Origin: Fibrobacter sp. UWB4
Lineage (GTDB): Bacteria > Fibrobacterota > Fibrobacteria > Fibrobacterales > Fibrobacteraceae
DNA length: 64,000 bases
NCBI RefSeq assembly: GCF_002210345.1
Contig: NZ_MWQI01000004.1
Location: 1-64,000 of the forward strand
Direction of reading: 5' to 3'
Positions 19,075 to 54,929 of the stretch are shown piece by piece (position 1 is the stretch's first letter; every line of letters starts with the position of its first letter). A program made the position numbers and the translations under genes. The notes under the pieces were generated by a model, which saw only the letters and a list, made by a program, of their open reading frames with translations, was not told where the DNA came from and searched no databases.

Positions 19075-19402
19075 ACCGTGCGAAACCTTCGTCAAGTTGC
19101 TGCACCCGTTTGCCCCGCACATCGCCGAAGAAATGTGGAGCATCCTCGGTCACGAAGGTTCTCTCACGAACGTCGCCTGGCCGGAAGCCGACCACTCCAA
19201 GGCCGTGGAAAACACCGTGGAAGTCGTATTCCAGGTGAACGGCAAGGTCCGCGCGAAGGCATCCGTCGCTAAGGATATGGACAAGGCCGCCCTCGAAAAG
19301 CTCGCCATGGAAAATGACAGAATGAAGGAGTTCATGGCAGGTAAGACTGTTGTGAAGTCCATTGTCGTTCCGGGCAAGCTCGTGAACATCGTGGTGAAGT
19401 GA
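19075..19402 (+). pseudogene. leuS 3' fragment at the distal island border
   Basis: The fragment encodes [19 protein letters not shown] through to the LeuRS C-terminus ending VNIVVK. It matches the start of the window closely (about 8 differences over 194 bp), and its last 74 bp match 407-480. The remaining ~90% of leuS is absent, so it cannot make a synthetase. It is best explained as the original chromosomal leuS end, pushed away from the gene by the island. The exact left edge is uncertain because the comparable upstream part of leuS lies outside the window. Confidence 0.85.
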
Positions 19403-23120: not shown

Positions 23121-23187
23121 TTAGCCTTGACTAATTAGCCTGGGCTTATTAAATTTAGTCATGTCTAATTAAATTAGACGACGTTAA
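23121..23187. promoter_or_regulatory. Array of TTAG-N6-CTAA sites before dtxR-feoAB
   Basis: Two full matches to TTAG-N6-CTAA (23121-23134 and 23155-23168) and two near matches (23135-23148 and 23174-23187) are packed within 67 bp upstream of the regulator gene. Related sites occur at 26902 and 28305. The form resembles DtxR/IdeR-type operators, and the first gene encodes such a regulator, so metal-dependent autoregulation is inferred. Confidence 0.6.
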
Positions 23188-23204: not shown

Positions 23205-23633
23205 ATGGAACACAATCACGTGAAGCTCAGCCAGAGTCTCGAAGACTATCTTGAGATGGTGCACATGCTTCGTTTAGCGAACGGAATTGCCCGTGTCAAG
23301 GACATTGCGGCGGCACTATCCGTCAAGATGCCTTCTGTGGCTAAGGCAATTCTCGAACTCAAGAAACTCGGGCTTGTGACGCAGGAACCTTATAGCGGTG
23401 TGGAACTCACGGAAGAGGGCCGAAAGGCTGCCGCCGATGTGTTGAACCGCCACATTCTCCTCAAGGGGTTTTTGATTCGTCTGGGGGTTTCCGAAGCGAT
23501 TGCGGACAAAGATGCTTGCAGTATGGAACACATTCTTTCGGCTGAAACGCTTGCAACTATTGAAGAATTCATGAAGAAGAATAACGCAAGTGCTGTCGTG
23601 AAGAAGGCTCCCAAAAGTGAAAAAAGGAAATAA
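23205..23633 (+). CDS. DtxR/MntR-family metal-dependent regulator
   Basis: A 142-aa DNA-binding repressor. It has the family's SQSLEDYLEMVHML start, a winged helix-turn-helix (VKDIAAALSVKMPSVAKAI) and the metal-site region with LNRHILLKGFL and DACSMEHILS. There is no C-terminal SH3 domain in this chain, but the next gene, feoA, encodes an SH3-like protein. The start has AAAGGA upstream, and feoA starts 3 bp after its stop. Likely Fe(II)-responsive control of the feo genes and the sites nearby; Mn(II) remains possible. Confidence 0.88.
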   Translation: MEHNHVKLSQSLEDYLEMVHMLRLANGIARVKDIAAALSVKMPSVAKAILELKKLGLVTQEPYSGVELTEEGRKAAADVLNRHILLKGFLIRLGVSEAIADKDACSMEHILSAETLATIEEFMKKNNASAVVKKAPKSEKRK

Positions 23634-23635
23634 CA

Positions 23636-23920
23636 ATGGGTTGTAATTGCGGTTGCGGCGGCAAGTCGCAAACTAAAAAGTGGGATTTGGAACCGAAATT
23701 TTCGGATCTCAAGAAGGGCGACAAGGTTGAAATTGTCGGCTACAATGAGGGCGATGCCCGCTATAAGTCCAAGCTTTTGTCGATGGGACTTGTTCGTGGT
23801 GTGACGCTTGAAGTCTTGCAGATTGCACCTCTCGGGGATCCGATTGAGGTGAGTGTTCTTTCTTACCGTTTGTCGCTTCGCAAGCAAGAAGCGAACGTTC
23901 TTAAATTGAAGAGGGTCTAA
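23636..23920 (+). CDS. feoA: Ferrous iron transport protein A
   Basis: A 94-aa cytoplasmic SH3-like protein that supports FeoB. The core is typical (LKKGDKVEIVGY, LLSMGLVRGVTLEVLQIAPLGDPIEV, YRLSLRKQEA). An unusual N-terminal extension MGCNCGCGGKSQ carries three cysteines (C3, C5, C7), a possible metal or redox site not seen in standard FeoA. Its stop codon touches the feoB start at 23920. Confidence 0.9.
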   Translation: MGCNCGCGGKSQTKKWDLEPKFSDLKKGDKVEIVGYNEGDARYKSKLLSMGLVRGVTLEVLQIAPLGDPIEVSVLSYRLSLRKQEANVLKLKRV

Positions 23921-26826
23921 TGGCTCCGAAGCTTTTTACTATTGCTATTGCCGGTAACCCGAACTGCGGTAAAACGGCTCTTTTTAATGCTCTTACGGGT
24001 GCTCGCCAGCATGTTGGTAACTGGCCGGGCGTGACTGTCGAAAAGAAGGAAGGCTATTTCGAACTCGGTGATCAGCACATCCGCGTGGTGGACTTGCCGG
24101 GTACTTACGCTCTCTTTGCCAATGCCGAAGACGAACGCGCCGCTGTGGACTACTTGCTCACTCGCGAAGCGGACCTCATCATCAATATTATTGATGCCTC
24201 GAACATCGAACGTAACTTGTTCTTGACCTCTCAGCTTGTCGATATGCAAATCCCGATGGTGATTGCTGCAAATATGATCGACATTGCTGAACAGCGTGGT
24301 TTGCACTTGGATTTGGATATCATTGCCGAACGCTTTGGTGTGCCGGTGATTCCTCTTTCTGCCGTGAGCGACAAGAGCATCACGAATTTCATTAGCCAAA
24401 TGGCTCATGTTATCGCTGGCAAGAAGATGACTCCCAAGGCCATTGACTATGGTGAAAATGTCGAAAAGACCGTGAAGTACTTGGAACCACAGGTTGAACC
24501 GGTTGCTAAAATTCTGGGAACGGATGCCCGCTGGGTTTCGCTCATGTACTTGGGCAACGAAAAGAGCTATGCAGACAAGTTTGCAGAAGCGAAGGTCCAG
24601 ATCAACAAGGCCGAAGTGACCAAGATGCTGAACGAAGAAAGCGAATTTGCGATGGCTGACGTGCGCTACAGCTTGGCTCACGATATTGCAAACAAAACGA
24701 TCCTTTCGAACCGTTCCAAGAGAACCTGGTCTGATAAGCTCGACTCCGTGCTTTTGAACCGCTGGGCTTCGCTCCCGATTTTCCTCTTGGTCATGTACCT
24801 GGTCTTCTGGGTTGCAGTGACGATCGGTTCTGCTTTCATTGATTTCTTTGACGTGCTGTTTGGCGCTATCTTTGTGGATGGCCTTGGCTACTTGCTCACG
24901 GATGTGTTCCATGCGCCGGGCTTTGTGTCTGCAATCCTCGCCGATGGTATCGGTGCCGGTATCCAGACGGTCTCGACTTTCATTCCGGTCATCTTCTTCA
25001 TGTTCCTCTGCCTTTCTTTCTTGGAAGACTCTGGTTACATGGCTCGTGCCGCTTTTGTCGCGGACCGCTTTATGCGATTCCTCGGACTCCCGGGCCGTGC
25101 ATTTGTGCCGATGATGGTTGGCTTTGGTTGCGGGGTGCCGGGCATTATGGGTTCTCGTGTGCTCGAATCCAAGCGTGAACGTTTCCTTACGATTTTCCTT
25201 GTACCGTTCATGAGCTGCGGCGCTCGCCTTCCGGTGTATGCGTTGTTTGCGGCTGCATTCTTCGGAACGCAGGCAGGGACAGTCGTGTTTGCCCTCTACC
25301 TTGCGGGCGTTCTCTTTGCGATCGTGTACGGCTTGATTCTTCGCCGCTCCTTGTTCGTGGGTGAGGCTAGCAACTTTGTGATGGAGCTGCCGCCTTATCA
25401 TTTGCCGAAGTTCAAGTCGCTCATGATCCACTCCTGGCTCCGTTTGCGTGACTACGTGATTCGTGCCGGTAAGGTGATTACGATTGCGGTTGCAATTCTC
25501 GGCTTCCTCAACAGCTTTGGCTTTGTGGACAAGCTCTACACTGAAATCAATGGCGAAAAGACCGAAATCGTGAAGAGCGAAGAAGGCTACGCCATGGTGC
25601 AGGACGAAAAGGAAGTTCCGCTCCCCGAAGGTGTCGTGATTGACGAATCTAAGGTCCAGGCGGAAAGTGAATTCACTGCTGGTAACGGCGATTCCGAAAA
25701 CAGCTTGCTTTCTGTGATTGGTAAGGCGATTACCCCGATTTTTGAACCGTTCGGTGTTGAATCCAACAACTGGCCGGCTTCAGTGTCCCTCTTCACGGGT
25801 CTCCTTGCTAAGGAAGCTGTGATCGGTACGATGAACTCGTTGTACTCCATGGCTGGCCCTGGCGATGCTGCTGAAGTCGCATCTCGTCATCCTGAGCAGA
25901 GCGAAGAATCCAGTGAAGTCTCGACTGAAGCCCCGGCGCCTGCTGCAGAACCTGTCGCTGTTGCCGATAGTGCTGACGCTCGTCATCCTGAGCAGAGCGA
26001 AGGATCCAGTGAAGTCGCTGTTGCTGATTCCGCAGTCGCTGATAGCGCAGTTGTCGCAGACAGTGCTGTTGCTGAAGCTCCTGCCGAAGAAAAGCCCCTT
26101 ATCGCAGGCGTGGACGAATGCCTTGCCGAAGAAGAGGATGAAGGCGGTGCTCCGGATATTCTCGGTGCATTCAAGGAAGCCCTTGGCACGGTTCCTGAGA
26201 ACTTGAGTGAAGTCTTCGGCTCTCTCACGGACATTCTCGGAACATCTGGTGAACTCGAAGCGCAGAATGCCGCAGAACTCAAGAAGGTCACGCTTGATAA
26301 GATTCTTGATGCGAAGGCAATTACTTGCGAAGAATACGCTTCTATCGAAACCTTCAGCGAAGAAGAAGGTGCCGACAAGGCCCGCGAGGCTGTGTTTGCA
26401 AAGCTCGCTGCTGCAGGCCTTACGCTGAGCGAAGATGAAATCGGCGCTCTCGAAGAAGGCGACTTGAGCGAAACGGCTGACATCTATGCCAACCTCCGCT
26501 CTTACTTCCACAACCCAGACAAGAACGGAAACCCGGTCGATGGATTTAACTGGCAGGTGTTTGCATTCTTGATCTTTATCTTGCTCTATGTGCCGTGTCT
26601 TGCTGCGATGGGTGTCGTGGTTCGCGAAATCGGCCTTGGACTCGGTGTGCTGATGGCTGTGGTGCAGACAATCCTTGCTTGGGCTGTCGCGGTGCTCCTC
26701 TACCAGGTGCCGGTCGGTGGCAATGTGTTCTGGATTGTAAGCTCGATCATCGTGCTTGTGGCAACATTCGTGTTCCTTAAGCTCTTTGGTATGAGCGCAA
26801 ATAAGAAAGGGCGTTTCGAAGACTAA
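23920..26826 (+). CDS. feoB: Ferrous iron transporter B with a large repeat-bearing insertion
   Basis: A 968-aa inner-membrane Fe(II) transporter, well above the usual 700-780 aa. The G-protein domain has GNPNCGKT near residue 12, DLPGTYALF near 59 and ANMID near 125. The membrane core includes the GCGVPGIMGSR and SCGARLPVY gate segments. The extra length is an acidic, Ala/Ser/Glu-rich segment at about residues 650-855, placed before the last transmembrane helices. It contains two translated REP-like repeats (RHPEQSEESSEV and RHPEQSEGSSEV) and several ADSAV units. It is the last gene of the dtxR-feoA-feoB unit, ended by a hairpin at 26851. Confidence 0.93.
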   Translation: MAPKLFTIAIAGNPNCGKTALFNALTGARQHVGNWPGVTVEKKEGYFELGDQHIRVVDLPGTYALFANAEDERAAVDYLLTREADLIINIIDASNIERNLFLTSQLVDMQIPMVIAANMIDIAEQRGLHLDLDIIAERFGVPVIPLSAVSDKSITNFISQMAHVIAGKKMTPKAIDYGENVEKTVKYLEPQVEPVAKILGTDARWVSLMYLGNEKSYADKFAEAKVQINKAEVTKMLNEESEFAMADVRYSLAHDIANKTILSNRSKRTWSDKLDSVLLNRWASLPIFLLVMYLVFWVAVTIGSAFIDFFDVLFGAIFVDGLGYLLTDVFHAPGFVSAILADGIGAGIQTVSTFIPVIFFMFLCLSFLEDSGYMARAAFVADRFMRFLGLPGRAFVPMMVGFGCGVPGIMGSRVLESKRERFLTIFLVPFMSCGARLPVYALFAAAFFGTQAGTVVFALYLAGVLFAIVYGLILRRSLFVGEASNFVMELPPYHLPKFKSLMIHSWLRLRDYVIRAGKVITIAVAILGFLNSFGFVDKLYTEINGEKTEIVKSEEGYAMVQDEKEVPLPEGVVIDESKVQAESEFTAGNGDSENSLLSVIGKAITPIFEPFGVESNNWPASVSLFTGLLAKEAVIGTMNSLYSMAGPGDAAEVASRHPEQSEESSEVSTEAPAPAAEPVAVADSADARHPEQSEGSSEVAVADSAVADSAVVADSAVAEAPAEEKPLIAGVDECLAEEEDEGGAPDILGAFKEALGTVPENLSEVFGSLTDILGTSGELEAQNAAELKKVTLDKILDAKAITCEEYASIETFSEEEGADKAREAVFAKLAAAGLTLSEDEIGALEEGDLSETADIYANLRSYFHNPDKNGNPVDGFNWQVFAFLIFILLYVPCLAAMGVVVREIGLGLGVLMAVVQTILAWAVAVLLYQVPVGGNVFWIVSSIIVLVATFVFLKLFGMSANKKGRFED
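25885..25920. repeat. REP-like repeat translated inside feoB, copy 1
   Basis: CGTCATCCTGAGCAGAGCGA then AGAATCCAGTGAAGTC. It is the same family as the intergenic repeat at 19418. It is read in frame as RHPEQSEESSEV, about residues 656-667 of FeoB. Confidence 0.85.
25981..26016. repeat. REP-like repeat translated inside feoB, copy 2
   Basis: Differs from copy 1 by one base (AGGATCC instead of AGAATCC) and is read in the same frame, about residues 688-699. The 96-bp spacing suggests local duplication or two insertions. Confidence 0.85.
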
Positions 26827-26901: not shown

Positions 26902-26915
26902 TTAGACTAAACTAA
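26902..26915. promoter_or_regulatory. TTAG-N6-CTAA site before the 34-aa ORF
   Basis: TTAGACTAAACTAA lies 22 bp before the start of the small ORF and downstream of the feoB terminator. It matches the sites before dtxR and likely puts this transcript under the same metal regulator. Confidence 0.5.
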
Positions 26916-27109: not shown

Positions 27110-28231
27110 ATGAAGACTCGTTTAACATCCAACCTCTTGTTTGGTCTTACTGCTGCATCTATCCTTGCCGTTCCGGCTATGGCTCAGGAAGCTGAAGCCG
27201 CATCTAAAGGCCCGGAAGTCAAGTTCTCTGGCGAAGTAGAATTTGATGCATACACAGGTGACGTAGTTAATGAAGACAAAAAGAGCCATAACTACGCTTC
27301 TACTTTTGATTTGAACGTTGATGTTAAATTTAATGAAAAGTGGTCTGCATCTGTGCAGCTTGAAGCTGATGGTGAAACGACGGATCCGACCGCTATTTAC
27401 AATGGCGCATTTGTCCAGTACACGCATAGCGATAAGTTTGCCGTGAAGTTTGGCGACCTCACCTTCTCGGAAGGCGCGTTCCTGAACTTCTACGATTATG
27501 ACGATCCGGCTGATAACGCCGCCGGTATGGCAGAACACGATATCCGCGGTTTCGAAATCGACTATGACGGCCTTGTGTTTGGCCTTGGCTTTGGCCGCGG
27601 TGGCAACGACAATCAGGTTTGCGTTGAAGAAGATGGTGAAGAAAAATGTGTAGGCGTTGCATACGACTTGCACCTCGCTTACGAACTTGGCCTTGGCGAA
27701 CAGGTGCTGCGTCCGTTTGTAGATTACAAGTCTTATCAGGAAGCTGAACACAACGAATTGCATGCGGGCCTTGATGCAAACTTGAAAGCAGATGTATTCA
27801 CTTTCCACTTTGTGTATGGCTTGCATATGGATAATCTTGGTGAAGATACTCCGAAAGCAACGCATGCATTCCTGGCTGAACCTGCTGTAGAACTTGGCAA
27901 GGTGAATATTAAGGGATCTGTGTTCTATGCTATTATCGATAAGGACGATCCGACTGATCACGGCGAAGAAATTCCTGAATATTTCTTTGCCTATGGTGAA
28001 CCGAGTGTGAAGATAAACGATGCTATCGCCCTTGGACTTCCGTTGGAATATCATACAAATACGACGGATAAGGACGAAGATGTTTCTGTGTTCAACATAG
28101 GCCTTCGCGCATACTTCACTCCTATTGAAGGTCTTGACGTGACTGGCTTTGCCAAGGTGAATATCCCTGTTGGTGATGATGCTGATGACGCTGGTCTCAA
28201 GTTTGGTCTCGAAACAGTATTCGCATTCTAA
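27110..28231 (+). CDS. Outer-membrane porin-like protein
   Basis: A 373-aa exported protein with a clear signal peptide (MKTRLTSNLLFGLTAASILA...MAQ, cleavage near residue 25). Alternating beta-strands follow, and the chain ends in a terminal FGLETVFAF strand, as expected for an outer-membrane beta-barrel. It is rich in Asp and Glu. Its place after feoB and the 34-aa ORF suggests metal or small-solute uptake, but no specific family was identified. A GGAGTG lies before the ATG; it has its own promoter and a strong terminator. Confidence 0.75.
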   Translation: MKTRLTSNLLFGLTAASILAVPAMAQEAEAASKGPEVKFSGEVEFDAYTGDVVNEDKKSHNYASTFDLNVDVKFNEKWSASVQLEADGETTDPTAIYNGAFVQYTHSDKFAVKFGDLTFSEGAFLNFYDYDDPADNAAGMAEHDIRGFEIDYDGLVFGLGFGRGGNDNQVCVEEDGEEKCVGVAYDLHLAYELGLGEQVLRPFVDYKSYQEAEHNELHAGLDANLKADVFTFHFVYGLHMDNLGEDTPKATHAFLAEPAVELGKVNIKGSVFYAIIDKDDPTDHGEEIPEYFFAYGEPSVKINDAIALGLPLEYHTNTTDKDEDVSVFNIGLRAYFTPIEGLDVTGFAKVNIPVGDDADDAGLKFGLETVFAF

Positions 28232-28304: not shown

Positions 28305-28318
28305 TTAGATTAATCTAA
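28305..28318. promoter_or_regulatory. Perfect TTAG-N6-CTAA palindrome
   Basis: TTAGATTAATCTAA is a perfect 14-bp palindrome upstream of the DUF3793-flavodoxin pair and agrees with the sites at 23121, 23155 and 26902. Confidence 0.6.
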
Positions 28319-28499: not shown

Positions 28500-29075
28500 A
28501 TGCTTAGGTTGTTCATGGATAGAAACCTTGATTCTTGCTTGGTTCGACAATGCGCCCCGACACTTGCGGGCCATAAGTTGGGCAATCTCTTTTGTGTCGA
28601 TGTTGCTGATGGTGTTTTGTTTTGCAATATCCTTGCGCGTTGGAATCAGGCCTTGAACCCTAAGGGCGTTGCTGCTCGCGTAATTGCTGAACGCTGTGGG
28701 CGCTATTTCATTTATGTCTACCGGAATAGCGCTTTACAAAATTTGGGATGCTCTTGCGAAGTTCGTAATTTTTTGAAAGGTTTTGGCTACAACTGCTTTG
28801 ACGCGGAATCGCTTTTGAACTTTTTTCAGGTTCGCATGACGCGCTCGGTGTGCTTTCCGCATGAAGTGGGCGTGTTTTTAGGCTACCCACTTGACGACGT
28901 GAAAGATTTTATTACGTATGGCGGAAAAAATTACAAGCTGATTGGCTGCTGGAAGGTCTATAACGACGTGCCGAATTCCATGCACATTTTTGAAGTATAC
29001 AAAAAATGTCAAAAGATTTTACGAGAACGATTTGAATTGGGTGAGACTTTAGAGCAGTTGACTGTTGCAAGTTGA
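28500..29075 (+). CDS. DUF3793 family protein
   Basis: A 191-aa cytoplasmic protein with features of DUF3793: an early CAPTLAGHKLGNLF, a central YVYR segment, and FPHEVGVFLGYPLDDVKDFI. It is cysteine-rich (about nine Cys). Members are often encoded beside flavodoxin and Feo genes in anaerobes, as here, where flavodoxin starts 38 bp later. Function is unknown; a role tied to iron supply is inferred from context. A second ATG at 28515 is also possible as start, since neither has a strong ribosome-binding site. Confidence 0.8.
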   Translation: MLRLFMDRNLDSCLVRQCAPTLAGHKLGNLFCVDVADGVLFCNILARWNQALNPKGVAARVIAERCGRYFIYVYRNSALQNLGCSCEVRNFLKGFGYNCFDAESLLNFFQVRMTRSVCFPHEVGVFLGYPLDDVKDFITYGGKNYKLIGCWKVYNDVPNSMHIFEVYKKCQKILRERFELGETLEQLTVAS

Positions 29076-29113: not shown

Positions 29114-29542
29114 ATGAATAAAATTGCTGTTATTTTCTGGACAGGTACGGGTAACACCGAAGTTATGGCGAATGAAGTGGTTGCTGGCGCAAAGGAAGCT
29201 GGCGCCGATGTGACGCTTTTCAATACGTCTGCTTTTTCTGCCGATAAGGCCCAGGAATTTGACAAGTTTGCTTTGGGCTGCCCGGCAATGGGTGCCGAAG
29301 AACTTGAAGATAGCGAATTCCAGCCGCTTTATGATCAGCTGAAGGCTCAGATTTCGGGCAAGAAGGTCGTGCTTTTCGGTTCGTACGGCTGGGGTGGCGG
29401 CGAATGGATGAATCCGTGGAAAGAAGATGCTGCAAATGCGGGCCTCGTGCTTGCTGATGAGCCGCTCGCGATTGAAGGCGCTCCGGATGATGCTGGCAAG
29501 GAAAAGTGCCGTGAACTCGGCAAAGTTCTTGCTCTGTCGTAA
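29114..29542 (+). CDS. Short-chain flavodoxin
   Basis: A 142-aa FMN-binding electron carrier of the cytoplasm. It has the phosphate-binding loop WTGTGNTEVMA near residue 11 and FGSYGWGGGEWM near 85-95 for the isoalloxazine ring. Flavodoxin replaces ferredoxin when iron is scarce, which suits its position in the iron block and the metal-type palindrome upstream. AAAGGA precedes the ATG. Confidence 0.92.
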   Translation: MNKIAVIFWTGTGNTEVMANEVVAGAKEAGADVTLFNTSAFSADKAQEFDKFALGCPAMGAEELEDSEFQPLYDQLKAQISGKKVVLFGSYGWGGGEWMNPWKEDAANAGLVLADEPLAIEGAPDDAGKEKCRELGKVLALS

Positions 29543-29569: not shown

Positions 29570-29627
29570 GTTAGACTCTCTAACAAAATTAGAGAGTCTA
29601 ACATTGTTAGAAAATCACTAACAATGT
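29570..29627. promoter_or_regulatory. Two adjacent hairpins built from TTAG/CTAA half-sites
   Basis: A perfect 14-bp inverted repeat (29570-29583 with 29589-29602) is followed by a 10-bp one (29601-29610 with 29618-29627). Both contain TTAG...CTAA units with 5- or 7-bp spacers. There is no T-tract, so a simple terminator is unlikely. They may be a dense operator cluster for the next operon or an RNA structure at the flavodoxin 3' end. Confidence 0.5.
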
Positions 29628-29777
29628 TAGCGTCAATCTCGTGAAACTCAACTGCGGTGCGGGGTTGCGAGAGTTATGTATTTAATTTATTTGTAATTTG
29701 CAATTGGAGGGGAGAGTATCTAATTTTTTAAGGCGGGCAAGTTGCTCCGCTGATTTTTCTTTAATAAGGAGAAACAT

Positions 29778-30002
29778 ATGTCTATATTCAAAAACGAAAA
29801 ATTCTGGCTTGTCATTGCTGGTGCTGTGGGTTCCGCAGTTGCAAAGAAAGTGCTCAAGGCCAAGAAAACTCGCGAACTTGCTGTTCAGGGACTTGCTCAT
29901 GGCATGAAGTTCACGGCTGACGCCAAGGCTGCTTTCCAGGACATGAAGGACGAAGCTAGCGACATTTGCAACGACGCTAAGGCAGAAGCAGGGATTAAGT
30001 AG
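29778..30002 (+). CDS. Small membrane protein, DUF6110-like
   Basis: A 74-aa protein. An N-terminal hydrophobic helix (FWLVIAGAVGSAVAKKVL, about residues 10-27) is followed by a charged Ala/Lys/Asp-rich helix, with one cysteine near the end. It starts after a strong AAGGAG and precedes a P1B-type ATPase gene. This architecture and pairing resemble DUF6110 and, by analogy, the mycobacterial PacL membrane scaffolds that support P1B metal exporters. A helper role for the ATPase is inferred. Confidence 0.7.
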   Translation: MSIFKNEKFWLVIAGAVGSAVAKKVLKAKKTRELAVQGLAHGMKFTADAKAAFQDMKDEASDICNDAKAEAGIK

Positions 30003-30169
30003 GCTTTGAGCGATGGGGTCGGAGCTAAAGCTCCTCTCAGTACGCTTCGCTTTGAGGTCGCTACGCTTGGGCTATTCCATTATATTAAGCCCATGGCCCA
30101 AAGTGTGCCGAAGACGAACGAGTCCATACCCCATAGCCTACAGTTTATTTTTGCAGGTTTTTAATCGCT

Positions 30170-32269
30170 ATGAAATTCAAAATCGTTTACGATAAGCCGG
30201 GTCGCCTTCGCTTGCGTGCTGGGGCGTACGCTTTTGAACGTGATTATGAAGCGCGCATTCACAAGGCTTGCTTGAATGAGCCTTGCGTTAAAAGTGTTGT
30301 GGTGCGTAGCGTCAATGGCGGCCTTCTTTTTGAATATTCCGCCAAGGCGGGCGATTTCGAGACGAGCCGTAAGCAGATTCTTGATTTTGTAAGTGCGCTC
30401 AACCCCAAAGAATTGCCTGAATGCGACGGTGAAACGGAATACCAGTTGCAAGCATTGGACGATGGCTTTAAAAACAACCTAGCGATGATGATTGCAAGGC
30501 GCTATTTGTCGCGTTGGTTTTTGCCGCTTCCGATTCGCACGGCGATTACGGTTGCTCGTGGGTTGCGTTATGTGGCTCGCGGAATTTCGACGCTCATGAG
30601 CGGAAGCCTCACCGTCGATGTTTTGGACGGTGCTGCAATTGGCGCTTCGCTGTTGCAACGCAATTACGAATCTGCCGGGACGGTCATGTTTCTTTTGGGC
30701 GTTTCGGGCTTGCTCGAAGATTACACCAAGGCGCGTACGCGTACGGCTTTGACGGGAAGCCTCGCTGTAAAAGTCGATAAAGTCTGGGTCGTGAAAGACG
30801 GTGTGGATGCATTGGTGGATATGAAGGATGTCCAAGTCAATGACCTTGTTCGCATTCGTTCCGGTAGCATGATTCCTGTGGATGGCCGCGTCATGGAAGG
30901 CGAAGCCTTTGTGAACGAATCGACGATGACGGGTGAATCCAAGGCGGTGATGAAGACTGCTGGCAGAATCGTTTTTGCCGGGACTGTTCTTGAAGAAGGT
31001 GCCATTCTCGTGAAGGTGCATGCGGTCAACAGCAATACGAAAATCCAGAAAATCGTGGAACTGATCGACCGTAGCGAAGACTTGAAGGCAAGCGTGCAGA
31101 GCCGTGCGGAACATTTGGCGGATAGCATTGTGCCGTTCAGCTTCCTTGGCTTTGGGCTTACGCTCTTGTTGACGCAGAATATCTCGCGCGCGGTTTCCAT
31201 CTTGATGGTGGATTACTCTTGCGCGATAAAGCTTTCGACTCCGATTTCCGTGATTTCTGCACTGCGTGAAGCGGCGGATATGGATATGACGGTGAAGGGC
31301 GGCAAGTACTTGGAAGAGCTTGCGCTTGCTGATACGATTGTGTTCGACAAGACGGGAACGCTCACGAAGGCAGAACCGCGACTCGAAAAGATTATTCCGT
31401 TCGGCGAGTATTCCGAAAAGCGGATCTTGAAAATCGCGGCATGCATCGAAGAACATTTCCCGCATAGCATGGCTCGTGCGATTGTGAAGGCCGCGCTGGA
31501 ACGCAATATCAACCACGTCGAAGAACATGCCGATGTGCAGTACATCGTGGCGCACGGTATCGCGACTTCGCTCAAGGGCAAGCGTGTGGTCATTGGAAGC
31601 AAGCACTTTGTCATTGAAGATGAAAAGGTCAATGTTTCTGAAGCGAACCAGGCGATTATTGACGAACAGGCGGGTGCTGCGTCCGTGATTTACCTCGGCA
31701 TTGGCGGAGAGTTGGCGGGTGCCATTTGCATTGGCGACCCTCCGCGTGAAGAAGCTGCGGATGCCATTCGCGGACTGCGTGAAAGTGGAATCAAGAATGT
31801 GGTGATGCTGACGGGCGATAGCTTGAATGCTGCAGAACGCGTTGCGGAACATTTGGGAATCGATACATTCTACGCGCAGGTCTTGCCAGAAGACAAGCAC
31901 CATTATATGGAACGCATGAAGGCTGAAGGCAAGCGCGTGATTATGGTGGGTGACGGCATCAACGATGCTCCTGCTCTTGCTACAGCGAATGTCTCTGTCG
32001 CCATGAGCGATGCTTCGGACATTGCCCGCGAAACGGCTGACGTGACGCTCCGCCGCGAGAATCTCGAAGACCTCGTGGAACTGCGCCTCTTGAGTCAGAA
32101 ACTTATGGAACGCATCATGAAGAACTACCGCTTTATCATCACATTCAATACAAGTTTGCTTGTAGGCGGATTCTTCGGCCTGCTTTCTCCGACAACGTCT
32201 GCTTTTTTGCACAACGTATCGACCATGGGCATTTGCGCAAAAAGCATGACGAAACTGAAGGTGGAGTAA
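30170..32269 (+). CDS. P1B-type heavy-metal translocating ATPase
   Basis: A 699-aa metal pump of the inner membrane. An N-terminal HMA-like region lacks CxxC. The actuator loop MTGES is near residue 254, the phosphorylation site DKTGTLTK near 391, and the hinge GDGINDAPAL near 595. The membrane metal-site helix reads DYSCAIKLSTP instead of the CPC of copper pumps, pointing to another metal; Fe(II), Mn(II) or Zn(II) are candidates. It follows the DUF6110-like gene and closes the metal block, so it may export excess iron or manganese. A strong terminator lies at 32391. Confidence 0.9.
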   Translation: MKFKIVYDKPGRLRLRAGAYAFERDYEARIHKACLNEPCVKSVVVRSVNGGLLFEYSAKAGDFETSRKQILDFVSALNPKELPECDGETEYQLQALDDGFKNNLAMMIARRYLSRWFLPLPIRTAITVARGLRYVARGISTLMSGSLTVDVLDGAAIGASLLQRNYESAGTVMFLLGVSGLLEDYTKARTRTALTGSLAVKVDKVWVVKDGVDALVDMKDVQVNDLVRIRSGSMIPVDGRVMEGEAFVNESTMTGESKAVMKTAGRIVFAGTVLEEGAILVKVHAVNSNTKIQKIVELIDRSEDLKASVQSRAEHLADSIVPFSFLGFGLTLLLTQNISRAVSILMVDYSCAIKLSTPISVISALREAADMDMTVKGGKYLEELALADTIVFDKTGTLTKAEPRLEKIIPFGEYSEKRILKIAACIEEHFPHSMARAIVKAALERNINHVEEHADVQYIVAHGIATSLKGKRVVIGSKHFVIEDEKVNVSEANQAIIDEQAGAASVIYLGIGGELAGAICIGDPPREEAADAIRGLRESGIKNVVMLTGDSLNAAERVAEHLGIDTFYAQVLPEDKHHYMERMKAEGKRVIMVGDGINDAPALATANVSVAMSDASDIARETADVTLRRENLEDLVELRLLSQKLMERIMKNYRFIITFNTSLLVGGFFGLLSPTTSAFLHNVSTMGICAKSMTKLKVE

Positions 32270-33666: not shown

Positions 33667-34740
33667 TCAAATCGATGGTACGATGAATACGTGCCAAGAG
33701 CCTTCTTCTTTCCCTTTTTCGATGTAATGTTTGTTGAGGAGGTGCTGAACGAGTTTATTGACTGCTGAAATTTGAATACCCAATTTACGCTGTATATCTG
33801 CTAGTGACAATACGGGCTCGCTTTGCATCAATTCCAAAATTTTGCTGTAGTTCGGCGAACGGAACTCAATGCATTCTCCGTCATACCACCAGATGCTTTC
33901 TCCGTGTTTGATGAGAAAACGGACATCTGCGTCGATTTCTTGTGCAACCATGTTGCGGAAATATTTGAGGAACGGAGCGATGGCTTTGATGGATGCGTTT
34001 GCGCCAGAACTAGGTGCTGCCCCCACCGCTAAATCAGCGGCGTGCAGTGCTTCTAGGTATTCTTCTTTTTTTCGGCTACGGACCACGACCATGGGGATGT
34101 CGTGTTTTGCCAAAATGTAATTGACGAGTAGTCGAGCAATTCGACCGTTGCCATCTTCGAACGGATGAATTCTGATGTAGCGATAGTGAAATAGCGCCGC
34201 TAATTCTACAGGCGACAACTTGCCTTCTTTTTCGGCGTTATTGTACCAATCGACTAGATCTGTCATCATCGCGGGTGTTTCTTCTGGGGAGGCGTAGTCG
34301 AACCGGTCTCCATATCGTGTGATGACGCTGTTTGGGCGAGTTTTGTATTGCCCTGCATGAACGACATACCCGACTTGCATTCCTCCAGGAAGTTCGCGAT
34401 GGACGGCATAGTCTTCGCGCAACAGAGTGTGATGTAAGCCTCTTATGAAATTTTGCGTGAGAGGGGTTTCCTTGACGCGAGACTCCGCTACCATCATCTT
34501 GAGCGAAACTTCGCTAGCGACCATCTCCTGCACGCTTCGCACATTCGCTTCGCCGATGACCTTCCCAAAAAGCAGAAGAATTTCCGTCTGTCCGTAAGTG
34601 AGCGTGTTGCCTTCAATGTGGTTGCTGTTGTAGTTGAAATCAACCGAAAAACGGCGGGCAAGACGGGTCTTGTCCTCTTCCGAAATCGGCTGGAGTGCTT
34701 TCCATGCGTTAAGGGCTTTTTCTAGGGTCAGGTATCGCAT
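33667..34740 (-). CDS. Fic-domain protein (AMP transferase family)
   Basis: A 357-aa protein with the complete Fic motif HPFEDGNGRIAR near residue 192, including the catalytic histidine. It also has an N-terminal NHIEGNTLTYGQT segment of the Fic_N type and a C-terminal winged-helix region (LSLADIQRKLGIQISAVNKLVQHLL). The N-terminal S/T-x-x-x-E-G/N pattern (SNHIEGN) is the usual inhibitory helix of class II Fic proteins. It probably AMPylates a protein target; the target is unknown. It is a single gene, convergent with the HEPN-like gene. Confidence 0.88.
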   Translation of the reverse strand: MRYLTLEKALNAWKALQPISEEDKTRLARRFSVDFNYNSNHIEGNTLTYGQTEILLLFGKVIGEANVRSVQEMVASEVSLKMMVAESRVKETPLTQNFIRGLHHTLLREDYAVHRELPGGMQVGYVVHAGQYKTRPNSVITRYGDRFDYASPEETPAMMTDLVDWYNNAEKEGKLSPVELAALFHYRYIRIHPFEDGNGRIARLLVNYILAKHDIPMVVVRSRKKEEYLEALHAADLAVGAAPSSGANASIKAIAPFLKYFRNMVAQEIDADVRFLIKHGESIWWYDGECIEFRSPNYSKILELMQSEPVLSLADIQRKLGIQISAVNKLVQHLLNKHYIEKGKEEGSWHVFIVPSI

Positions 34741-52811: not shown

Positions 52812-53477
52812 CTACGCCTTCATGAGTTTCGCCACATAATGCACCGCAACGGCGAGCAGCACGACGATGGCGATGTAGTCTGCGAAAAAGAGGGCGTAGC
52901 CGCGTTCCGCATCAAAGAAAAAGAAGGGCTGTTGCAGGAACATGTATTTCCAAAGCCCGCGAATGGCGATGGCGTAAATTCCGTAACCCGCCACGAGAAC
53001 GGCAACCATGCGAGTTGCAACAAGTGCAGCCTTTGACTTGAATACGCCCGCAATTCCCAAGCGGTTTGCAATCAAGCTTACATGCAGCCCGATGTGGAGC
53101 GACATGAACACGTAATACCAGTGGCTGGCGAGCAGGTGCGCCGTGCGGGCGAAACTTGCACCCGATTCAATTCTGAGCCAGGCAAACACGTGGTTCGAAA
53201 GCATAACGCCGCTCACCATCAAGAAAAATGCGCACAAAAGGATCCCGCAATTCACGACCGCCTGCAAAATGCGGAATGCATTGTAGCGTCCCTTGAACAG
53301 CGAAAGGAAGAATCGCCGGTTCAGCGAGATGTGCACCGCCCACAGAACAAGCAGCACCACGCCTAGAATCTCGTGAACGGCAGTCGATTCAAAGAAGTAA
53401 TTCCCACCCATCAGCACGAGCGTCGCGACCGTCATCGCGATATCAAGCGGCATACGGATTTTGGCGGAAATTGGCAT
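52812..53477 (-). CDS. DUF4405 membrane protein (cytochrome b-like)
   Basis: A 221-aa protein with about five or six membrane helices. It carries histidines at positions expected of the DUF4405 group: VHEILGVVLLVLWAVHISLNRRF near residue 34 and HLLASHWYYVFMSLHIGLHV near 109. These histidine pairs could bind heme, as in cytochrome b561-type proteins. It lies 15 bp after the SUMF1-flavodoxin gene in the same direction, which suggests it passes electrons to or from exported flavoproteins of this cluster. Confidence 0.75.
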   Translation of the reverse strand: MPISAKIRMPLDIAMTVATLVLMGGNYFFESTAVHEILGVVLLVLWAVHISLNRRFFLSLFKGRYNAFRILQAVVNCGILLCAFFLMVSGVMLSNHVFAWLRIESGASFARTAHLLASHWYYVFMSLHIGLHVSLIANRLGIAGVFKSKAALVATRMVAVLVAGYGIYAIAIRGLWKYMFLQQPFFFFDAERGYALFFADYIAIVVLLAVAVHYVAKLMKA

Positions 53478-53492
53478 ATCAGGGAATATACA

Positions 53493-54929
53493 TTATTTCG
53501 TCTTCACGCCGTTTTTCTCGAGCCACTTGGCCACATCTTTCGAGAGACTCGAACCGCCGGAGTAATGCACCGAAAGGCCTTCGCCGATTTTTGCGTTGGG
53601 CGCGAGTTTCGCAATCGCGGTGATGCTCTGGCCAAAGCGCCCGCCACCGTGGGAGCAGAACGGCAGAATCCGCTTGCCCGTAAAGTCGTAACTTTCGAGC
53701 AAAGTCGCAATAGGCATCGGGATACTCGCCCACCAGTTGGGGTAACCGATGATAATCGTTTCGTAACCGGCCCACTTCTTTGCGTCTGGCTTTTTCTTGA
53801 GCGCAGGGCGCGCCTGTTTGTGCTGGTCGTTCTGCGCCTGCTTCAAGACGGTATTGTAGTCGTCGGAATAGGGCTTCACGAGTTCAAGTTCCACCATGTC
53901 GAAACCGGTCTGCTTCTTGATTTCGCGGGCGACACCGCGGGTATTCCCGCTCCAGGAATAGAAAACAATCAGCGCACGGGAAGCCCCTTTCGGGTTCAAC
54001 GCCGCTTGCGCCTTTTCGCCCTTAAAGCCCGCCGCTTCCTGGGTCACAAATGTCCCCTTGACGCCTGCACCCGCATTCATGGCGAGCCTGAGCCCCACAT
54101 TGTAACTCTTGCTGGATTGCTGCATGGCCCCGCGATAGGCGCTGCGGAGGTTTTTGCCGAAATCGTTCCAGCCGCCACCGCGATGCACGCGCCTCGTGCC
54201 CGAAGGCTTGCCCGCCGGATCGACCGTCACGCTTGTCGAGCCCGCAGAAACACCGTAATCGCCGTAAAAGTCAAAGCACCATTCGCCAACGTTCCCGTAA
54301 ATGTCGTAAAGCCCGAAGGGATTGGGCTTGAATTTGCCCACGGGGAGCGTGTTCCCGCGGTAAACGCCGGGGCGTGTTTCCAGAACCTCGTCGTTGAAAT
54401 AGTTCTGCTCGATTTGATACGGATAATGCCCGTAAAAATTCACGTCGTCGGCACCGGGAGCCTTCTTTGTGTAGAACGGCGTGGTCGTGCCGCCTCGGGC
54501 CGCGTATTCCCATTCCGCTTCGGTGGGGAGCCTGTAGCCGTTCGCCTCGCGATTCCAGCTGACCGCATCGCCTTCGATAGCGTAAACGGGAGTGCGTCCG
54601 TCGCGTTCGCTTAACTTGTTGCAAAAACGAGCCGCATCGAGCCATGTGATGTTTTCGACGGGCAAGTCGTCACCCTTAAAACTGGAGGGATTTTCGCCCG
54701 TCACTTCGCGGTAAAGCTTTTGCGTCACCTCGTATTTACCCAGATAAAAATCGGAGACCTTCACCTTATGCAGCGTCTCGTCGTTGACGCGCCAGTCCTC
54801 GTTTGCGGGGCTTCCCATGTTGAAAGTCCCGCCCTTGATAAGCACGAAGCCATCGGGCGCAGGTGCCGCCGCAAGCGACACCGCCGAGAACCACAAAATT
54901 GCACAAGATAAAAGTTTAGCGAACTTCAT
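53493..54929 (-). CDS. Exported SUMF1-like (FGE-sulfatase domain) / flavodoxin fusion
   Basis: A 478-aa exported fusion. After a signal peptide (~22 residues) comes a SUMF1/FGE-type domain (GGTFNMGSP, YEVTQKLYREVTG, LPTEAEWEYAARGG, ending NVGLRLAMN near 295). Then follows a flavodoxin-like domain (~320-478) with YSWSGNTRGVA, GYPNWWASIPMP and FCSHGGGRFG. The FGE domain lacks an obvious catalytic Cys pair, so it may only bind. The pairing with a periplasmic flavodoxin is unusual. The gene is in a probable operon with the CMD-cupin gene upstream and DUF4405 downstream. Confidence 0.85.
   Translation of the reverse strand: MKFAKLLSCAILWFSAVSLAAAPAPDGFVLIKGGTFNMGSPANEDWRVNDETLHKVKVSDFYLGKYEVTQKLYREVTGENPSSFKGDDLPVENITWLDAARFCNKLSERDGRTPVYAIEGDAVSWNREANGYRLPTEAEWEYAARGGTTTPFYTKKAPGADDVNFYGHYPYQIEQNYFNDEVLETRPGVYRGNTLPVGKFKPNPFGLYDIYGNVGEWCFDFYGDYGVSAGSTSVTVDPAGKPSGTRRVHRGGGWNDFGKNLRSAYRGAMQQSSKSYNVGLRLAMNAGAGVKGTFVTQEAAGFKGEKAQAALNPKGASRALIVFYSWSGNTRGVAREIKKQTGFDMVELELVKPYSDDYNTVLKQAQNDQHKQARPALKKKPDAKKWAGYETIIIGYPNWWASIPMPIATLLESYDFTGKRILPFCSHGGGRFGQSITAIAKLAPNAKIGEGLSVHYSGGSSLSKDVAKWLEKNGVKTK

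Follow-up and report, generated by a model that had tools for sequence, protein, structure and literature searches.

We analysed a window of 64 kb (the whole stretch of DNA of 64,000 nucleotides) from a Fibrobacter genome of 3.58 Mb. It contains a gene for a 74-aa membrane protein followed by a gene for a 699-aa P-type ATPase, and all genes of the iron island around this pair lie upstream of it on the same strand (Table 1). A sequence-only reading had described a tiny one-helix membrane protein preceding a P1B ATPase with SCA, and both open reading frames were recovered with exactly the boundaries it gave.

Table 1. Positions of the gene pair, its putative operators and the iron-related genes before it in the window.
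Feature	Position	Strand	Remarks
DtxR-family iron-dependent repressor	23205-23633	+	Two TTAG-N6-CTAA upstream, at 23121 and 23155
FeoA	23636-23920	+	Family search
FeoB	23920-26826	+	Family search
Outer-membrane beta-barrel protein	27110-28231	+	Sub-threshold family matches only; TTAG-N6-CTAA upstream, at 26902
DUF3793 protein	28500-29075	+	Family search; TTAG-N6-CTAA upstream, at 28305
Flavodoxin	29114-29542	+	Family searches
Putative operator array before the pair	29571-29630	.	TTAG-N5-7-CTAA at 29571, 29589 and 29607; CTAAC-N3-GTTAG at 29598 and 29618
74-aa FezA/PacL-like membrane protein	29778-30002	+	ATG start, from the list of open reading frames; TM helix about 7-27, cytoplasmic helix 30-70
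Intergenic insert between the two genes	30003-30169	+	Present in some close relatives; foldable
699-aa P1B6-type ATPase (FezB-like)	30170-32269	+	ATG start; N-terminal alpha/beta domain with PGRLRLR, TM4 DYSCA, C-terminal LHN

The 74-aa protein has a single N-terminal hydrophobic stretch (about residues 8-26), and the two helices given in Table 1 come from an AlphaFold2 model of modest confidence (mean pLDDT 68). The insert between the two genes (167 nt) is 94-96% conserved in three relatives and was not found in the nearest relative, L048. It folds better than shuffled sequences (z -2.6), and no Rfam element reached its gathering score in the 64-kb window.

Some other features of the window were recorded. 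FeoB carries two RHPEQSE peptide stretches (25885 and 25981), resembling an in-frame insertion of an interspersed DNA repeat. Downstream of the module, the minus strand encodes a Fic/DOC-family protein that includes a winged-helix domain (33667-34740). Positions 1-300 and 19094-19393 are 84% alike and positions 407-478 and 19329-19400 are 96% alike; these stretches, about 19 kb apart, are seemingly two copies of a tRNA-synthetase gene end.

Distribution and pairing of the two genes

The small gene was present in 10 of the 41 genomes searched, its own included, and all ten belong to one genus. Within the genus it was carried by 10 of 25 members (own included), and outside the genus by 0 of 16 genomes. 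The ATPase gene (at least 74% identity) occurred in the same 10 of 41 genomes, adjacent to the small gene on the same contig. One of the small-gene rows (G005) was flagged for a TAA within the reading window. Second, partial ATPase copies, 75-79% identical, were seen in G001 (L034, G001:C62) and in G005 (L035, G005:C12), each being either a paralogue or assembly contamination.

Wider relatives were collected by scanning for the TM4 region across 84,980 species, one genome per species, using a pattern that required SC followed by A, V or G, and the best 80 loci were taken. The named close relatives of the locus among these 80 are Fibrobacter succinogenes and Fibrobacter sp. assemblies, and the nearest ATPase, that of L048, is 97% identical. 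A profile was then built from 61 small proteins of the best 80 loci. By this profile search, the gene immediately before the pump is a small gene in 74 of the 80. In the remaining six (L055, L061, L063, L095, L105 and L123), the contig starts 12-314 bases before the pump or inside it, and at L095 the small gene itself seems to be truncated by the contig edge. The end of the small gene was located from 11 bases inside to 358 bases before the pump start in 73 of the best 80 loci. At L049, where the pump frame is interrupted, the gap between the end of the small gene and the frame with the pump N-terminus is about 20 bases. Because the genes were jointly present in the same genomes and together at so many of the best loci, their pairing is more than chance; it is near-obligate.

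Plasmids were searched with tblastn. The 74-aa protein gave no match there, while the pump matched 4460 records, of which 8 were examined. In Azospirillum and Arcobacter plasmid relatives, several small genes, the last annotated YtxH, are found directly before such a pump. This arrangement resembles the six-gene fez clusters of Rhodopseudomonas palustris.

Subfamily and origin of the pump and its partner

The ATPase matched the heavy-metal P-type ATPase family TIGR01525 over the cut-off (E 1e-144), and the other marks of a P1B core, DKTGT and GDGIND, are present as well. CopA and ZntA were among the best structure matches of its model (mean pLDDT 80), which shares their fold and has an N-terminal beta-beta-alpha-beta-beta-alpha domain carrying PGRLRLR. 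We take the long helices of the model to be the eight membrane-spanning ones that a P1B pump should have.

Passages of PMC9374683 describe a conserved HN motif in TM6 as a P1B6 feature. HN was found near the C-terminus in 73 of the 76 assessable pumps of the best 80 loci, and the three misses are one disrupted, one cut and one over-extended frame. An N-terminal RxR motif of the form [GCQN]RhR occurred in 73 of 75 pumps of the same loci. Among 41 chosen aligned pumps, R12, R14, R16, D348, Y349, S350, C351, N660, H681 and N682 were invariant, and both the HN in TM6 and the non-CPC TM4 (S350-C351-A352) were kept in all 41; in the window's pump the transport helix reads DYSCAIKLSTP. Judged by this signature, the pump is classed as a P1B6-type ATPase. 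The metal motif had been called unusual in the sequence-only reading. We ruled this out, since SCA is the norm of the subfamily and was carried by 80 of the 80 best relatives, in a scan that had demanded SC and then A, V or G. In a quick tree, a 75-row SC-type set, which takes in pumps of Azospirillum, Arcobacter, Vibrio, Cereibacter and Deinococcus, was set apart from 4 CPC rows (SH-aLRT 99, with a long-branch warning). CtpC, with CPC, is called 'P1B6-like' in a passage of the literature.

The quick maximum-likelihood tree of 82 pumps recovered the 23 Fibrobacter rows, window included, as a single clade (100). A 35-row set (98) unites them with 12 Ruminococcus/Oscillospiraceae-type rows, with no resolved inner branch order, and this set itself branches among Bacillota; the tree program warned of long branches and of uneven composition among the outer rows. 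The window's pump shares 63% identity with a Ruminococcus pump over 695 aa, and among the matches listed for the 16 phylum genomes from other genera none exceeded 34% identity at E ≤ 1e-60. The tree placement, this identity and the lack of a close match in those 16 genomes suggest that the pump was transferred into Fibrobacter from Clostridia, with Ruminococcus-like donors. One of the 12 rows comes from an Alistipes assembly (L087), whose pair with a Ruminococcus-type pump reflects either transfer or mis-binning.

The best Pfam match of the 74-aa protein was DUF1490 (PacL, PF07371; E 2.4e-4; 21.5 bits, where the cut-off is 28.4), and DUF6110 (PF19605) had no match anywhere in the genome at E ≤ 10. 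Membership of either family by Pfam threshold was thus ruled out. Among 38 chosen relatives at E ≤ 0.01, 19 match DUF6110 and 17 match DUF1490. The five nearest Bacillota small proteins scanned (four Ruminococcus-type, one Lachnospiraceae) gave no DUF6110 match, only sub-threshold DUF1490 or other matches. The small-protein profile also picked a Deinococcus DUF6110 protein (E 9e-10) and, in Rhodococcus, a true DUF1490 protein (E 1.5e-4), each adjoining its pump. It did not find YtxH-type partners, although a profile comparison with one such partner gave a probability of 61% (E 8e-5). Over 73 residues the window protein and the R. bromii small protein share 68% identity, and all 38 chosen small proteins keep G15 and D62. 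The search for a solved structure returned nothing useful for the small protein (one match, E 0.047, to an uncharacterized protein). On these matches, the subgroup is placed between PacL and DUF6110 and passes neither cut-off.

The pair had also been called PacL-like. Distant kinship stands, through the sub-threshold DUF1490 match and the Rhodococcus protein, and the layout is of the PacL type, namely a TM helix and then a cytoplasmic region in a gene encoded with a P1B pump. The likeness does not extend to the Asp/His metal-binding tail of PacL1, which is absent from a sequence ending ...DAKAEAGIK, or to the partner, which has SCA and not CPC. From the kinship one may propose a PacL-like platform in the plasma membrane, where the small protein would cluster and stabilise the pump and excess Fe(II) would be expelled from the cell. 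A weak profile comparison with one DUF1490 protein (probability 36%, E 4e-4) argues in the same direction, as do the TM helix and cytoplasmic helix of the model and the TM segment G-A-V-G, which is the same in the Rhodococcus DUF1490 protein. According to a passage of PMC13043812, GXXG is needed for PacL2 clustering. However, GXXG is not kept in the wider family, where only its first Gly is conserved, and the missing tail and the SCA partner also speak against such a platform.

Iron neighbourhood and putative operators

We counted the neighbours of the pair at other loci. Among the Fibrobacter loci of at least 9 kb (n = 20), FeoB was found at 11, DtxR and FeoA at 10 each, DUF3793 and flavodoxin at 9 each, ZIP at 4 and Fur at 3. 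In one Fibrobacter clade any Feo genes at the locus are upstream of the pair, and in the other clade they are downstream of it. A Feo, DtxR, Fur, ZIP, DUF3793 or flavodoxin gene was carried by 16 of 44 non-Fibrobacter loci of at least 9 kb, compared with 0 of 34 control stretches drawn from three genomes only (Fisher p 3e-5); FeoA or FeoB was present at 5 of the 44 and a ZIP neighbour at 7, and 28 had none of the sought neighbours. Some seeds of the neighbour profiles came from six of the tested loci, and the only match of L078 is such a seed, so that the count without L078 is 15 of 43. A few of the DtxR matches outside Fibrobacter are weak (E about 1e-9 to 1e-11). A PF00210 search of the genome for ferritin gave two matches, both rubrerythrins, and no ferritin.

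From the iron island, iron is the likely metal of the pump, and the suggestion of iron in the sequence-only reading is backed both by this neighbourhood and by the palindromes described below. Two other metals were considered. A zinc (or cadmium) exporter, comparable to the mycobacterial CtpC for zinc, would agree with the ZIP genes on the same loci (4 of the 20 Fibrobacter loci and 7 of the 44 others, as above) and with the three of those 20 Fibrobacter loci whose ZIP gene adjoins a Fur-family gene. However, ZIP proteins can carry iron too, the window's own island holds Feo, DtxR and flavodoxin genes, and the pump is without CPC, which makes zinc unlikely. DtxR-family repressors include the manganese-responsive MntR, and this would favour a manganese exporter, which the sequence-only reading had allowed; but the DtxR gene is joined directly to feoAB here, and we regard manganese as very improbable. 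Among the neighbours, which were searched with other genes in view, no Mn gene came to notice, and no observation spoke for this metal.

The palindromic pattern TTAG-N5-7-CTAA, which was framed after the upstream regions had been read, has 7 sites in the 64-kb window, a number reached by 0 of 100 shuffles. All seven lie before island genes: two before dtxR-feoAB, one before the barrel protein, one before DUF3793-flavodoxin and three before the pair. The palindromes are thus common to feoAB and the pair, with a spacer of N6 at the feoAB sites and of N5 or N7 at the sites of the pair. Two CTAAC-N3-GTTAG palindromes, 20 bp apart, also precede the pair. The count of TTAG/CTAA half-sites alone in the window's upstream region was unconvincing (8 against a shuffle maximum of 9), whereas the paired sites were convincing.

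The exact tandem array is unique to this locus in the 3.58-Mb genome. Elsewhere in the genome CTAACAATGTTAG was found once only, with a mismatch, and its backwards control gave 2 matches against 5 forward. For the period-20 AACNNNGTT at one mismatch, the backwards control (18) exceeded the forward count (11), and only the sole exact match, at this locus, was used. A match of TTAGNCNNGNCTAA at C2:54089 was set aside as it lies inside a coding frame, and the genome-wide count of TTAGNCNNGNCTAA was dropped as evidence (4 forward, 4 backwards).

Sites of the CTAAC-N3-GTT type were found in 22 of 24 Fibrobacter upstream regions, with 65 seen against 0.4 expected from shuffles. These regions come from the window and from 23 of the 28 Fibrobacter loci fetched, five incomplete or broken ones being omitted; they are related and so not independent. 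The site was missing from two Fibrobacter loci, L069 and L072. The classical DtxR box TTAGG-N5-CCTAA was looked for and none was found. Because the spacing differs, this classical box is absent and the genome holds two Fur-family genes, we only infer that feoAB and the pair have a shared regulator, perhaps a DtxR-type repressor. A further cluster of TTAG/CTAA palindromes was observed at L153 (G000:C4:123519), just before a gene read as an AraC-type regulator and behind a predicted secreted protein; it is maybe another iron-regulated promoter.

The palindromes also bear on the efflux platform. Their likeness to those of feoAB suggests joint expression at low iron, which would be opposite to what a detoxification pump requires. 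Such a platform is possible but doubtful.

Proposed iron storage and comparison with known systems

P1B pumps move metal out of the cytosol. We consider that the pair is most likely an iron-storage module of the FezAB (ferrosome) type, with a probability of about 0.6, and that the iron efflux platform is less likely. In the proposed mechanism, the ATPase would move Fe(II) out of the cytosol, spending ATP, and the one-helix partner would bind and cluster the pump and shape a membrane patch that is loaded with iron. The loaded patch would then become an internal iron store. The pair would be switched on with Feo uptake under iron scarcity, and iron arriving later would be banked, in a genome whose ferritin search yielded rubrerythrins only. 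Being probably co-expressed with Feo at low iron, the pair is better explained as such an iron bank than as a detoxification pump. The sequence-only reading had proposed an exporter. The pump class does imply transport out of the cytosol, yet detoxification across the envelope would be less likely, as the likely regulation and the known relatives point instead to an internal store. FezB was reportedly described by Grant in 2022 as a P1B-6 ATPase spread across diverse bacteria and archaea.

A broader proposal is offered tentatively, at somewhat less than even odds. PacL scaffolds of mycobacterial effluxosomes and FezA-type proteins of anaerobe ferrosomes may form one continuous family whose shared task is to gather a P1B6-type pump in patches of membrane. 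In anaerobes, among them Fibrobacter, such a patch would become an iron-storing organelle, and rumen Fibrobacter would have acquired the two-gene kit from Ruminococcus-like bacteria and brought it under the control of a dedicated array of iron operators. If this is true, a major fibre-degrading gut genus joins the bacteria that bank iron in organelles, by horizontal gain of just two genes. Mycobacterial PacL metal-efflux platforms and ferrosomes, published separately, would likewise be tied through an intermediate subfamily. Our literature search found no relevant paper linking PacL and ferrosomes (the one co-mention, in a breast-cancer review, was judged unrelated), but the founding ferrosome papers lay outside it, so the link has possibly been published. 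The word 'ferrosome' is absent from the 2022 and 2026 PacL papers, and 'FezB' from the 2022 one. In passages of papers that mention ferrosomes together with Fibrobacter, Fibrobacter taxa appear only in lists of magnetotactic phyla or of genome accessions.

Compared with the PacL1-CtpC effluxosome of Mycobacterium tuberculosis (DUF1490), the Fibrobacter pair is alike in having a TM helix and a cytoplasmic region beside a P1B pump with HN in TM6. It differs in that the small protein is without the C-terminal metal-binding motif, the pump has SCA where CtpC has CPC, the context is iron and not zinc, and the host is not an actinobacterium.

DUF6110 proteins are typically encoded with P1B6 pumps, according to passages of PMC9374683. 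The Fibrobacter pair shares with these the small TM protein encoded with a P1B6 pump, and the small proteins are related by profile, although the Fibrobacter protein has no DUF6110 match.

According to passages of PMC12574912, C. difficile needs both FezA and FezB to form ferrosomes, and Fur represses them; fezAB corresponds to CD630_05910-05920 in a passage of PMC11651100; R. palustris CGA009 is described in part of PMC12016538 as forming ferrosomes from six fez genes. No FezC-like gene adjoins the Fibrobacter pair. The only DUF4405 protein found, tried as FezC, lies 21 kb away, and we claim no link. This DUF4405 membrane protein adjoins a fusion of sulfatase-modifying-factor and flavodoxin domains with what we read as a signal-like N-terminus, and the two (52812-54929 together, minus strand) are possibly an extracytosolic electron-transfer pair. 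The likeness to FezA-FezB is one of anatomy and context, set beside descriptions of the C. difficile proteins rather than their sequences: a P1B6 pump and a small membrane protein form a pair in an anaerobe, in an iron context. The putative operator in Fibrobacter is DtxR-like, whereas C. difficile fezAB is under Fur.
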